A stretch of DNA of 25,346 nt from a virus. Of the stretch, positions 14,320-20,047 are shown piece by piece. The stretch covers positions 1 through 25,346 of IMG/VR virus record IMGVR_UViG_3300042731_002647. One strand, written 5' to 3'. Made by a program: the position numbers and the translations under genes. The notes beneath the pieces are model-generated. The model was not told where the DNA came from. It ran no database searches and worked only from the letters and a program-made list of their open reading frames with translations. How positions within the stretch are numbered: position 1 is the stretch's first letter; every line of letters begins with the position of its first letter.

Positions 14320-14976
14320 TTAGAGACTTCTAAGATCTTTTTGTAATTTATCTATTTTCTTATTTACAGATTTTTTACACTTATCAGGATTCTTAGATTT
14401 TGGACAAACTCCATTAAGACTACTTTTAAGAAAATTAATCTGTGATTTAATTGCTGTTTGTTTTCCTTTTTTAATACAAGCCTTTTTTGCATCTCCTGAA
14501 AGGTGTTTACATGCAGCGGGTGTGGCTTTCTTTTTCTTGATAAAGTCTTTGATAAGACTAGAAGTCATAAAAAGCAAAGTTGTTACAGCAGCACCAGGAG
14601 CAAGCAAATAAGCCATAACTTTTGTTCTTTGTTTTGGTGTCATATTTCTCCAAGCCCTAGATACTATCCATGATCCAAATTTTTCTTTTAATCTGGATTC
14701 TGTTATTATAAGTCCTGATTCTTTAGCATACTCACATATACTAGTAACTACTTTTCGGTTAGAAAACATATTATTTATTATAGCTTCTTCTTTTATTGGA
14801 GTACTTTCATGTTGAATATCTTCATCATCAAATTCATGTGTATCAACCTCTCTCAACATCTGTCCATAAACATCTTCTTGATCAGTATCACTTAAAGTAC
14901 TAAAATCATCAGCATCTTTTGTGTTTCTATTATTATAAAGTCTCTGAAGTGCATCATAATTACTGTCATCTTGCAT
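14320..14976 (-). CDS. Cys-hairpin virion-operon protein, member D
   Basis: A 218-residue protein. The N-terminal about 65 residues are very acidic (Asp/Glu-rich) and likely disordered. A hydrophobic helix at about 121-140 (MAYLLAPGAAVTTLLFMTS) is followed by a Lys-rich linker and a four-cysteine module: C156, C167, C191, C200 in the spacing C-x10-C-x23-C-x8-C, with LSGDAKK between the first pair and KNPDK between the second. The same module occurs in two other genes of this operon and in half form in a third. The product probably spans or inserts into a membrane, or packs as a helical hairpin in the virion. Function unknown. Start ATG 14976 has AAGGAG at 14987-14992 on the - strand, overlapping the upstream gene's end. 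Confidence 0.8.
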   Translation of the reverse strand: MQDDSNYDALQRLYNNRNTKDADDFSTLSDTDQEDVYGQMLREVDTHEFDDEDIQHESTPIKEEAIINNMFSNRKVVTSICEYAKESGLIITESRLKEKFGSWIVSRAWRNMTPKQRTKVMAYLLAPGAAVTTLLFMTSSLIKDFIKKKKATPAACKHLSGDAKKACIKKGKQTAIKSQINFLKSSLNGVCPKSKNPDKCKKSVNKKIDKLQKDLRSL

Positions 14977-16188: not shown

Positions 16189-16725
16189 TTACTTCATTAA
16201 TTTTAATGCTTTAAGTTTATTCTTAGCTATCTTAATTTTTTCCTTTAATTTAGGAATACTTTCTTTCTTAATCCTATCTATTGTTTTCTTAATTCCTTTT
16301 TTTCTAGCTTCCATCATTGCCATCTTATAAACTTTCATTTTTTGGTCTAATTCTTTTACTTTTAAGTTAGCAAGACACAAACTTTTCTTAGAACCTTTAT
16401 ACGTGTTACATTTTGCTTTCTCTCTAGACACAAAACTTTTTAAGTTATCGTTAAGAACTTTTGATAACAAAGCTTCAGTTACATGTTTAAAGTGATCATA
16501 TAATACAATTCCAACTGTAGAACTATTAAACCGCTCTTCTAATTTTTCCTTTCCAGGATCATCTAAATTTGAAGTATCTTCGTTGAGAATAATTCCCATT
16601 AAAGTATACTCATCACAGCTATTTATAAATTCTACTAAACCATCTTTCTTACTTTCGTCTATATTAGACTTTAGTGCTGTTTCTGCAATAACTTTTTGCA
16701 AACATTTTTTAATACTATTATCCAT
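16189..16725 (-). CDS. Cys-hairpin family protein, member C (half module)
   Basis: A 178-residue helical, very Lys-rich protein. Its N-terminus resembles those of members A and B: an AETAL helix, IDES at 22-25 and FINSCDEYTLMGIIL (33-47) aligning with the NEATDYEI segment of A and B. C106 and C117 form the same C-x10-C spacing with YKGSKK between them, as in the other members, but the second C-x8-C pair and the preceding hydrophobic helix are absent. The C-terminal 60 residues are a single long basic helix (KIKIAKNKLKALKLMK). Function unknown; soluble relative of the membrane-linked members. AGGATTA-type weak binding site close to gp25's end. Confidence 0.75.
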   Translation of the reverse strand: MDNSIKKCLQKVIAETALKSNIDESKKDGLVEFINSCDEYTLMGIILNEDTSNLDDPGKEKLEERFNSSTVGIVLYDHFKHVTEALLSKVLNDNLKSFVSREKAKCNTYKGSKKSLCLANLKVKELDQKMKVYKMAMMEARKKGIKKTIDRIKKESIPKLKEKIKIAKNKLKALKLMK

Positions 16726-17169: not shown

Positions 17170-17361
17170 TTACTTATCTCCAAGAAGCTTACGCTTCTCC
17201 TCCTCTAAGTTTGTTTTCCACTTTAACATATTATAAAATCTTTGTACTGGCATATTCATAATGGAGTCATATTGCTGATGCATTAACTCCATGGCCGCAA
17301 AGATGTTGTCTTCCAATACTTTCTTATATTGGTCTATCTTACGCGGCTGCGAAAACCATTC
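17170..17361 (-). CDS. second-frame extension of the gp26-like protein (tail assembly chaperone, probable frameshift product)
   Basis: An open frame of 63 codons in the +1 frame relative to the gp26-like gene, from just after a T6 run (17368-17363) to TAA at 17172-17170. It continues past that gene's stop (17339) and fills the 171-base gap before gp25. The product reads EWFSQPRKIDQ, helices with FAAMELMHQQYDSIM, then MPVQRFYNMLKWKTNLEEEK. This 'MP..rfy.ml.W...leeek' ending resembles the short C-terminal extensions of tail assembly chaperones (P2 gpE', lambda gpT type). No start in this frame has a good binding site (TTG 17314 and ATG 17292 lack one), unlike almost every other gene here. It is therefore most likely made as a fusion of about 323-324 residues with the first 260 residues of the gp26-like protein. 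Independent initiation is the alternative. Confidence 0.7.
   Translation of the reverse strand, partial: EWFSQPRKIDQYKKVLEDNIFAAMELMHQQYDSIMNMPVQRFYNMLKWKTNLEEEKRKLLGDK
17183..17198 (-). repeat. stem-loop with GTAA loop just before the gp25 binding site
   Basis: On the - strand AGAAGC-GTAA-GCTTCT is a 6-bp stem with a GNRA-type tetraloop, ending two bases before GGAG (17181-17178) of the gp25-like gene. It lies in the coding end of the second-frame extension and could affect ribosome access to gp25. Confidence 0.4.
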
Positions 17362-18142
17362 GAAAAAATTGTTGTACTATATCTATATTAGTATCTTGCT
17401 CTTCTCCACAGAAAGGACATGTTGATTTCATTTTAAGATCTATTCTATACTTTCCAAAATTTTCTTCATATTTATCAACAATAAATTTCCTATCTTTAGG
17501 AGGAAGAGTAAAGAAACCATCAACAATATCAACTCTCTCTGTATAAATAAGAGGTTTCTTTTCACCTTTTTGTGTTGGTTTATATTCTCTGGTAAAATTT
17601 TCAATACATACTGTGTCAGCTATAGCATCTCCATGCTTTGCTTTTCCAAAAACTTCAAGAGCTGATATTTCATCTGCTAATGTAGGTTGTCTAACTGTGA
17701 CACTAACATCTTTAAAAATTTCTAATTTAAATGTAACTTTTTTCTCAAGAATATTTCCATTCTCTTGTGGCCAAACTAATATATTAAAAGTTTTACTAAT
17801 ATCTATATTAATTGGATATGTCTTATCACAACTTAGACAATTAATGTCATAATTTCTAATATCACCATAACTTGTATGGTAAATACCAAACAGTAAAGCT
17901 TCTCTATCTCTTGGAGTAATTGATCTTTCAAAAGTTTTAAAATCTTTAATCTCGTTTGGTTTTTCTACAATAAGATTAAATATAGAACGATTTAAATGAT
18001 CAGTAACTCGACTAGGAGTAAGAAGAGCTGTCTTTAAATTTTCTTCATCACGGACGTTCATACTTTTTACCGTAAATGAAAGATTAGACTGCGGAGTAAT
18101 AACTTCATATTGTGGTAATGGAATATCGAAACCTTTAAACAT
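17339..18142 (-). CDS. T4 gp26-like tail/baseplate assembly protein with zinc ribbon
   Basis: A 267-residue protein of the T4 gp26 type (T4_baseplate family), an assembly factor for the baseplate hub or tape measure. N-terminal MFKGFDIPLPQYEVITPQSN, the helical MNVRDEENLKTALLTPSRVT...SIFN and TPRDREALLFGIYHTSYGD (77-94) match the family, in which a 'd...L...l...tyG' helix precedes a Cys-rich insertion. Two CxxC pairs (C102/C105 in NCLSCDK; C242/C245 in TCPFCGEE) would bind one zinc. The zero-frame C-terminus (FFRMVFAAA) is replaced in a probable frameshift product by a 63-residue extension. It stands just upstream of gp25, as in the T4 25-26 cluster. Strong AAGGAG binding site. T4 gp26 (208 residues) is shorter. 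Confidence 0.82.
   Translation of the reverse strand: MFKGFDIPLPQYEVITPQSNLSFTVKSMNVRDEENLKTALLTPSRVTDHLNRSIFNLIVEKPNEIKDFKTFERSITPRDREALLFGIYHTSYGDIRNYDINCLSCDKTYPINIDISKTFNILVWPQENGNILEKKVTFKLEIFKDVSVTVRQPTLADEISALEVFGKAKHGDAIADTVCIENFTREYKPTQKGEKKPLIYTERVDIVDGFFTLPPKDRKFIVDKYEENFGKYRIDLKMKSTCPFCGEEQDTNIDIVQQFFRMVFAAA
17363..17368 (-). promoter_or_regulatory. candidate slippery site (T6) for +1/-2 frameshift
   Basis: The zero-frame codons are CAA TTT TTT CGA. tRNA-Phe on the second TTT can move one base forward onto TTC, or two back within the T run, both leading to GAA TGG in the extension frame. The extension frame is closed by TAG six codons upstream and the zero frame ends at 17339, so the shift must fall in a window of about 50 bases; the T6 run is its only homopolymer longer than four. 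A -1 shift would hit TAG at once. Confidence 0.55.
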
Positions 18143-18200: not shown

Positions 18201-18977
18201 CTATCTTTTTCTTCTGTATATACTAGGAGCTTCTTTAGGCTCAGGCTTTACATTATTACCTTCGAGTTTCTTTTCAAGAGCCTCTATCTTGCTAACAATT
18301 CTACTCATCTTTTTCTTTATAGATGTTCTACATCTATTTGGATTTCTAGTACCTCTACACATAGGATAAGAAGATCTTAACCTACTTAGATGAGTTTTAT
18401 GAGAAGAAATCTTAGCCCTCATAATACATTCAGTTCTTTCTTTACCTTTTAATTTTGTACATCTTTTATAAAGTCTATCCAGTCTAGCTTTATAAGCTTT
18501 ATATGAAGCATATAAAAGAGCACTTAACATTATTAACTCTGAAAGAGAAGACTCTTTATTATCTAAAATATTCTCTTTCAAAACTTCTCTATCTTTAAGT
18601 TTTCTCTGCGAATTAGTAATTAAATGGTTATCTAAAATAAATTTAGCAACCGATGGCTGAGAAGACATATTCCATTCTCTAAGAGAGTATATCTCCTCAA
18701 ATTTAACATTATTTAAATCAAATATATTTCTATTGTTTTCTAAAAACATATTTATATGATTGAGACATCTCTCTTCGTCTTTAGAATCATAAGTCCTCTC
18801 AGGAAAATCTGATTCTACTAAAATATAGAGAATTTCATAGTCTGTAGCTTCGTTAAGAAAATAATTAGATACCATGATTTTTCTTGCCTCTTCTATTGGC
18901 GCAGACTCCATATATATAGAAAGTGCTTCTCTAGCACATGTCATAAAAAGGTAAGAGTCTTTTAATTTATCTATCAT
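18201..18977 (-). CDS. Cys-hairpin family protein, member B
   Basis: A 258-residue paralog of the adjacent gene (member A). Shared N-terminal domain: K..D...F.T.AREAL, NYFLNEATDYEI (38-49) and IL.ES.FPER. A semi-hydrophobic helix at about 144-160 (LSELIMLSALLYASYKAY) precedes the four-cysteine module C173, C184, C207, C216 in the spacing C-x10-C-x22-C-x8-C, with LKGKERTE between the first pair and RNPNR in the second. A basic helix and a Pro/Arg-rich tail follow. The ATG overlaps member A's stop (ATGA, 18974-18977), so both are made together. Unknown function; the pair probably arose by duplication and acts in the virion or at the membrane. Confidence 0.8.
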   Translation of the reverse strand: MIDKLKDSYLFMTCAREALSIYMESAPIEEARKIMVSNYFLNEATDYEILYILVESDFPERTYDSKDEERCLNHINMFLENNRNIFDLNNVKFEEIYSLREWNMSSQPSVAKFILDNHLITNSQRKLKDREVLKENILDNKESSLSELIMLSALLYASYKAYKARLDRLYKRCTKLKGKERTECIMRAKISSHKTHLSRLRSSYPMCRGTRNPNRCRTSIKKKMSRIVSKIEALEKKLEGNNVKPEPKEAPSIYRRKR

Positions 18978-20047
18978 GCTATTTCCTCACTCTCTCCAGT
19001 CCTAAGCTTTCTAAGATTAAGCATTTGCTTATTTATTTTAGCTCGAAGTTTAGCGCTACATACAGCTGGATCTTTAGCGCTTGTACAATATGGAAGTCCA
19101 GCTCTCAAGTCAGTAATTCTCCGTTCCATAGCAGATATCTTATAGTTTTTAATACACTCAGACTTTTCTTCCCCAGATAATCCTCTGCATGCTATTTCTG
19201 CTTTCTTAAAAACAAATTGGAAAGCTCGATAAGAAGCAAAAGATATAAGGGCTACTAACATAGCTCCTCCTATTAATTGCCCAGCAGGACTAGCTAAAAA
19301 ACCTGCTAGTGCTGGACGAAGAGCAACTAGTCCTCCTCTAGCTAATCTATAAAGAGAAGAAAACCCAATTGAAAGAGCATTTACTCCTCGTACTGAAAAA
19401 GGAACTTTCCTTGTTCTTTCAGTCCTAGCTTTAGCAGCATCAGTAGCCGAATCCAATTCAGCTCTTACTCGATCAACTCTTTCGTCTGCTGCGTCAGCTT
19501 GTTGTTTAGCAGTACTAACATCTCCACCTTTTTTCTTTACTATTGAGATATTCTTGTTAGAAACTGCTTGAGTATATTTAGAATAAGCATACTCAGCTTT
19601 TTTATCAAGTAGATTTTGTTGTTCAGGAGGGACATCAGGAAGACCTCCAACTTCATCCCTATTCTCTATTTCTTCTTCTGCTTTTGTCCTCCATTTTTCA
19701 ACAGAATCCTGTTCTAGAAGATTATGCTCAAGAGTAAACCTTCTTATAAGAGGTTGAGAAGAAAAATTATACAACGACAATGGAACAAAGTCAAACGTAG
19801 CTCCATACTCACTTTTAATTTTATCAAAGAAGAACGCTTCCATTACTAAGTCGTTTTGACGTGATGGAAGAGTACCCTCTGAAAGAATATGGATAATCTC
19901 ATAGTCCGTCGCTTCGTTCTTAAAAAATTTCTTTGTTACTTCGATATCTTCGGTACAAAGACTACTCTCATCTATAAATTCACAAAGAGTTTCTCTAGCA
20001 ATGGTTAAGAAAAGAAGCGTGTCTTTAATCTTAACCGTGGTCACCAT
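18974..20047 (-). CDS. Cys-hairpin family protein, member A
   Basis: A 357-residue protein. The N-terminal domain (about 1-110) is shared with member B (LLFLTIARETL at 11-21, NEATDYEI at 44-51, a SSQP..R.F....L segment near 95-110). Residues about 125-225 form an inserted charged coiled coil (EKWRTKAEEEIENRDE, AADERVDRVRAELDSATDAA) absent in B. A hydrophobic region (about 242-282: LASPAGQLIGGAMLVALISF) leads into C287, C298, C321, C330 with spacing C-x10-C-x22-C-x8-C. The start ATG 20047 overlaps the tail tube gene by 17 bases and lacks a strong binding site, so it is probably coupled to tube translation. Member of a family repeated along this operon; function unknown. Confidence 0.8.
   Translation of the reverse strand: MVTTVKIKDTLLFLTIARETLCEFIDESSLCTEDIEVTKKFFKNEATDYEIIHILSEGTLPSRQNDLVMEAFFFDKIKSEYGATFDFVPLSLYNFSSQPLIRRFTLEHNLLEQDSVEKWRTKAEEEIENRDEVGGLPDVPPEQQNLLDKKAEYAYSKYTQAVSNKNISIVKKKGGDVSTAKQQADAADERVDRVRAELDSATDAAKARTERTRKVPFSVRGVNALSIGFSSLYRLARGGLVALRPALAGFLASPAGQLIGGAMLVALISFASYRAFQFVFKKAEIACRGLSGEEKSECIKNYKISAMERRITDLRAGLPYCTSAKDPAVCSAKLRAKINKQMLNLRKLRTGESEEIA

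Follow-up and report, generated by a model that had tools for sequence, protein, structure and literature searches.

A probable programmed +1 frameshift at UUU_CGA in the gp26-like tail assembly chaperone gene of a metagenomic virus

Introduction

Does the gp26-like tail assembly gene studied here end at its stop codon, or do some ribosomes carry on in the frame that overlaps its 3' end? The gene lies in a window of 25,346 nucleotides, a 25-kb viral fragment obtained as a metagenome contig, and a sequence-only reading had proposed for it a programmed frameshift, +1 or -2, at a run of six T, leading into an unmarked extension of 63 codons. The lambda-type G-T shift of tail chaperone genes has been described as conserved in long-tailed phages except T4, and a +1 shift has been suspected in HSTV-2 (PMC5009743). 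No general motif has been recognized for forward shifts (PMC10885494).

Results

The gp26-like gene (18142-17339; minus strand, like the shift site, the extension, and the next gene) encodes 267 aa in its zero frame, belongs to the PF12322 (T4_baseplate) family with two CxxC hairpins, and would specify the short form of a tail assembly chaperone. Its final codons are CAA TTT TTT CGA ATG GTT TTC GCA GCC GCG TAA, the TAA occupying 17341-17339. A TAG limits the +1 frame upstream; the frame runs open over 17376-17170 and overlaps the gp26-like gene by 35 nt. The next gene, a gp25-like baseplate wedge gene with its own binding site GGAG (17167-16739), starts after a gap of 171 bases, all of which is filled by the +1 frame. 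The positions first read from the letters alone, the bounding of the overlap by the TAG and the zero-frame stop, and the length of 63 codons after a shift were all verified, and the overlap of the gp26-like gene with an unannotated +1 extension is real. In shuffled sequence, a frame stays open across 171 nt in 0.5% of cases, and among the 25 window genes tested, the gp26-like gene was the only one with an unannotated extension of this kind. The tail tube gene lies upstream, whereas the gene directly after is the gp25-like one and not a tape measure gene; none of the latter was identified in the window.

Around the tube and gp26 genes, we also observed apparently paralogous genes (18201-18977, 18974-20047, 14320-14976, and 16189-16725, with L180 and L183), and the relative contig holds several more copies. 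Some members have an N-terminal NEATDYEILYIL motif, and a Cys-containing C-terminal repeat (C..LKG.E...CI...K......L......C..S.NP.KC) is present in other or the same members. The members tested against PHROGs gave no significant match.

Within the overlap, the candidate shift site is TTT TTT CGA (17368-17360), which includes the T6 run (17368-17363). At this site, the P-site TTT (17365-17363) would slip by +1 onto TTC (UUU_CGA), 21 nt before the zero-frame stop, and an in-frame TTT followed by C occurs nowhere else in the window gp26-like gene. When TTTC is read as a single Phe step, one continuous protein of 323 aa results (18142-17170), formed by gp26 and the extension (17361-17170, 63 codons and a TAA stop; EWFSQPRKIDQYKKVLEDNIFAAMELMHQQYDSIMNMPVQRFYNMLKWKTNLEEEKRKLLGDK). 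We take this fusion as the putative long chaperone on the basis of its conserved frame and of the same layout in T4 gp51, where it is a single ORF. In terms of sequence only, the locus thus has the makings of a chaperone pair, with a short form and a C-terminally extended form coming from overlapping frames near the 3' end.

We consider it very probable, from the comparisons described below, that a conserved programmed +1 frameshift at UUU_CGA makes the gp26-like tail assembly chaperone in a short and a long form. The frame, the site, their conservation, purifying selection on the extension frame, and the family fold are seen at the sequence level, whereas the occurrence of the shift, its rate, and its role in tail assembly are inferred. 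Most ribosomes would stop at 17341-17339 and release the 267-aa short form, while a minority would pause at UUU_CGA on the rarely used Arg codon CGA. Slow decoding of CGA is gauged from phage codon usage only, in which this codon represents 18 of 323 Arg codons. The P-site Phe tRNA would then slip forward by one base, from UUU to UUC, and reading would continue in the +1 frame, giving a long form of 323 aa that ends in a helical tail of 63 aa. On the model of lambda gpG/gpGT, the tape measure protein could be bound by many copies of the short form and few of the long one, which would also bring in the tail tube subunit.

A possible stem, GCCGCG...GCGGC (17347-17294), starts ∼15 nt past the P-site codon. 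Its CCGCG/CGCGG pairing is kept in the L181 relative described below, and the fold z scores range from -1.4 to -1.9 in the window and from about -0.8 to -0.9 in L181, so that an RNA stem downstream of the shift site is plausible but weak. No Rfam element was found near the shift site, and no tRNA was found in the window.

The window gp26 as bait retrieved no relative from viral contigs, and closer relatives were reached via the sheath and tail tube proteins. L002, whose sheath is 84% identical, was set aside since it is cut inside gp26. The nearest relative carrying the region is L181, a 56-kb contig found by tail tube similarity, whose gp26 is 55% identical to that of the window and ends with CAA TTT TTT CGT ATG GTG TAC GGA TCC GCG TAG. 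Both the site, here TTT TTT CGT, and the extension frame (VWCTDPRRIEEYRKVLSDNIFAAMELMHLQYSEVMCMPVKRFYDMLEWKTKLEDEKKKLLQEKKT) are kept, with no stop in that frame. Between the zero-frame stop and the first ATG shared by the two sequences, the extension frame shows 10 synonymous and 8 non-synonymous differences (pN 0.21, pS saturated), while the two other frames have stops in one or both sequences. This pattern indicates that the extension is under purifying selection in the shifted frame.

These data also bear on the possibility that the extension is a separate small gene, perhaps coupled to gp26, with its own start at TTG 17316 or ATG 17274. In-frame TTG and ATG codons are indeed present in the window extension, and other branches of the family have an ATG at a suitable place, 2 nt past the gp26 stop in cyanophages and near the stop in L194 and L199. 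However, the window TTG is CTT in L181, and the ATG common to both sequences falls within the conserved extension, beyond its first conserved part, which is already under purifying selection. The stretch past the stop therefore behaves as translated sequence without a conserved start of its own. Furthermore, two sequences of the clade described next have no ATG, GTG, or TTG in the extension at all. The claim that the extension lacks a good binding site held up; the internal candidate starts are poor, and none is conserved before the conserved part. We therefore regard a separate gene as very unlikely.

A second group of relatives was collected with L003 as bait, yielding 80 loci, of which 78 were complete and 50 distinct; the counts that follow were taken without correction for relatedness. 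In all 50 distinct genes, TTY TTT CGN stands close ahead of the zero-frame stop, and the +1 extension is 49 to 51 codons long. The P-site codon is TTT in every one, compared to 67% TTT among the other Phe codons of the same genes, and the A-site codon is always CGN, compared to 13% among the other Arg codons. CGG is found 11 times in the A site and never elsewhere in those genes, and no in-frame TTT_CGN was found elsewhere in them. Four codons upstream, Gly is encoded by GGG in 50 of 50 genes versus 5% elsewhere, and the resulting GGGG might serve as an internal signal resembling a binding site. At this GGG, at the TTT of the P site, and at the last two TTC codons, the clade shows no synonymous variation. 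The pattern is, moreover, repeated in several lineages.

Other lineages also have a +1 extension, with shift sites TTC TTT CGT in GXN1, TTT TTT CAC in Bacillus phage SP-15, TTC TTT CCC in QdP_Psa3, TTT CTA in LR756508, TTT TTT TGG in Mel-JY01, TTT TTT AGT in Listeria phage LIS04, and TTC TTT TGG in L184 to L193. GXN1, SP-15, QdP_Psa3, and LR756508 with its relatives would shift at UUU_C or UUU_U, and some more distant relatives have another A-site codon. The overlap in L184 is only 20 nt and has no alternative +1 re-pairing site. In GXN1, LIS04, and L003, gp26 sits between the tail tube and tape measure genes, with the latter directly after it. The QdP_Psa3 gp26 used as bait found nothing, and the phiR1-37 and Va2 regions, considered as further cases, showed no clear gp26 with a shift. 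In SP-15, Mel-JY01, and Atu_ph07 (L086, L092, and L093), the extensions are annotated as separate hypothetical proteins. In L194 and L199, two relatives of the LR756508 group, the extension is at -1 relative to the gene, an ATG is close to the stop, and a slippery run is absent, which suggests a switch from shifting to coupled translation.

A T6 homopolymer in a metagenome contig could also be the mark of a sequencing or assembly error, or of a pseudogene, the real gene being one continuous ORF. The same zero-frame stop and +1 frame are, however, found in L181, in the 50 distinct contigs, and in the isolates GXN1 and SP-15, several of them without T6, and we give this explanation practically no weight. 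The T6 of the window could also be the substrate for transcriptional slippage, with a base added or dropped in some mRNAs. Six T are short for transcriptional slippage, and relatives with TTC TTT CGC have a run of three T only, which makes this explanation extremely improbable. The original view of T6 as the slippery run was right about the region of the slip; what relatives conserve, however, is a UUU with C after it (UUU_CGN), several of them having TTC TTT CGN. All of the proposed refuting conditions that sequence comparison could address spoke for the frameshift: site and frame are kept in relatives, the frame has no stops, and an independent conserved start is absent.

The same relative frame would be reached by a -2 shift of the phage Mu gpGT kind, in which the Phe tRNA moves back from the second TTT along T6 by two bases. 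In the window itself, both +1 and -2 re-pairing at TTT TTT are possible in principle, and a perfect -2 re-pairing in the P site is also allowed in L181 and in most of the L003 clade; in LIS04 (TTT TTT AGT), the second TTT even gives a better re-pairing at -2 than at +1. We listed all P-site re-pairings in the overlap for 20 representatives. A +1 slip at UUU before C or U is possible in all 20 and, in 19, at the shared site, LIS04 allowing it only via the first TTT of its T6. In contrast, -2 re-pairing, which a Mu-type shift would need in all members, is impossible in 7 of the 20 (GXN1, LR756508, QdP_Psa3, L184, L189, L193, and L006), and relatives with TTC TTT CGN, TTC TTT TGG, or TTC TTT CCC keep the same frame relation without it. 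CGN is conserved, and its C is required for +1 re-pairing. Because the sites of several relatives (TTC TTT CGN) allow only the forward re-pairing, we favor +1 over -2, which we judge unlikely, and +1 is the simplest mechanism common to the family. The relative frame that had been proposed, +1/-2, was thus correct, and the direction can be refined to +1. At the sequence level, the site falls in the UUU_CGN +1 class, with UUU in the P site, CGN in the A site, conservation, and a +1 frame.

In another branch, 75 distinct cyanophage-type gp26 genes end in NNT TTT TTC GNN stop GT ATG, which contains a U_UUU_UUC heptamer; their extension is at -1 relative to the gene. The TTC codon of the heptamer is present in 75 of 75 genes, compared to 15% elsewhere. 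The octamer TTTTTTCG makes up the shift site in the window (17361-17368) and recurs in most of the L003 clade and in the majority of the cyanophage branch; between the +1 and the -1 genes, the zero and extension frames have swapped places. PMC12846349 states, with reference to a 2022 paper, that chaperone genes of T4-like phages were already known to carry poly-T -1 signals. We consider it evenly balanced whether T4-type phages have a widespread +1 class (UUU_CGN, with upstream GGGG in one clade), in which TTTTTTCG works as +1 here and as -1 (U_UUU_UUC_G) in cyanophages, the direction having flipped within one gene family. The U_UUU_UUC gene end with a gp51-like ORF in the -1 frame is seen in cyanophage-type, KVP40, and Atu_ph07 genes (L099 to L178, L090, L091, L093, and L096). 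The ATG lies 2 nt past the stop codon in cyanophage gp26, and at or just past the stop in cyanophage-type and KVP40 gp26 taken together; shift and reinitiation at this ATG could coexist there.

The window gp26-like protein matches PF12322 (gp26/gp51) over its full length (residues 10 to 261) with an E value of 2.4e-11 and 44.2 bits, above the curated cutoff of 24.5, and PHROG 150 (baseplate hub) with 2e-13. A PDB sequence search with it found nothing, and the extension alone has no significant match in PHROGs or Pfam. The protein (17339-18142) seems to consist of two halves that resemble each other, both with a CxxC beta hairpin at their end. The AlphaFold model of the fused protein is weak (pLDDT 55.6); in it, the extension forms two helices (266-295 and 297-319), and the matches in a Foldseek viral library are gp26 and hub assembly chaperones. 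A model of the cyanophage L099 gp26, built from 36 sequences, reached a pLDDT of 74.6. Its best structural matches are 3FGX (Z 8.2, rmsd 4.0 over 86), the HK97 tail assembly chaperone 2OB9 (Z 7.7, rmsd 3.6 over 84), and YqbN 3KLU (Z 7.1), with 5IR0 also near the top (Z range 8.2 to 5.1) and the next unrelated match at Z 4.1. Foldseek of this model against the PDB gave no significant E value, and the chaperones came out on top only after re-alignment of the Foldseek candidates with VIA; the fold match is therefore supportive and not proof. The TAC fold of this modeled member supports gp26 as a tail assembly chaperone family.

T4 gp26 matches PF12322 over its whole length, and T4 gp51 does so over residues 1 to 201 of 249, while its C-terminal tail shares homology with the small gp51-like ORF that comes after gp26 in cyanophages and KVP40 (hhalign E value, 6e-6). 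T4 gp51 can accordingly be seen as a gp26-like domain carrying an extension, a putative long form for which T4 has a second gene. The window extension matches that of the L003 clade in hhalign with an E value of 7e-4, and the link from the window extension to T4 gp51 is transitive only, the direct comparison not being significant. The suggestion that the extension is of the tail assembly chaperone type survives, in agreement with the family fold and the layout of T4 gp51.

Discussion

Tail chaperones of T4-like phages are already known. As cited in PMC10885494 and PMC12846349, Vladimirov et al. 2022 describe T4 gp26 and gp51 as such, the summary in PMC10885494 agrees with gp51 as a long form from a second gene, and the title of the 2022 paper announces that T4-like phages use a mechanism that is not frameshifting. 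What had been expected to be an unfamiliar case thus belongs to a chaperone family already described, while the direction and motif of the shift look unusual. We did not find +1 shifting in the gp26 family in the searchable literature, a scope that excludes the 2022 paper and those on HSTV-2, and earlier notice is possible. The chaperone system is known, but its variant in T4-type phages with slipping forward at UUU-CGN seems not to have been described.

The present branch of the gp26 family appears to frameshift, and forwards, although T4 has long been named the exception to the gpG/gpGT shift. One gene family would then solve the same stoichiometry problem by shifting +1, by shifting -1, by coupling, and by duplication, which makes it a natural set of lineages, and UUU_CGN would be a candidate motif for +1 shifting in phages. 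Annotation would be corrected as well, the extensions now being either unannotated or, in SP-15 and Mel-JY01, listed as separate hypothetical genes.

The TAC-family fold and the overlapping extension therefore point to a system of the lambda gpG/gpGT type whose shift, at UUU_CGN, resembles that of PA-X. As in lambda, short and long forms would share their N-terminal part, the shift would come just before the stop of the short form, and the fold is that of the TACs (PMC5009743), but lambda shifts by -1 whereas the shift here would be +1 at UUU_CGN, and gp26 is larger and has CxxC hairpins. T4 gp26/gp51 are of the same PF12322 family, gp51 being a gp26-like domain with a C-terminal tail; T4, however, uses separate genes, and in cyanophages and KVP40 the arrangement is -1, at U_UUU_UUC, in contrast to +1 here. 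The haloarchaeal myovirus HSTV-2, with a +1 shift inferred for its tail chaperone (PMC5009743, PMC8211752), is comparable in direction. Phage Mu gpGT (-2) reaches the same relative frame (PMC3498833), but its kind of re-pairing is impossible in several gp26-family members. A counterpart of the site is UUU_CGU, the influenza A PA-X +1 site, for which a slow A-site codon has been proposed as stimulus, and which likewise combines a +1 slip in the P site on UUU_C with CGN as the A-site codon (PMC3498833); PA-X has a eukaryotic host and is an unrelated gene, whereas here the gene would make a phage assembly chaperone.
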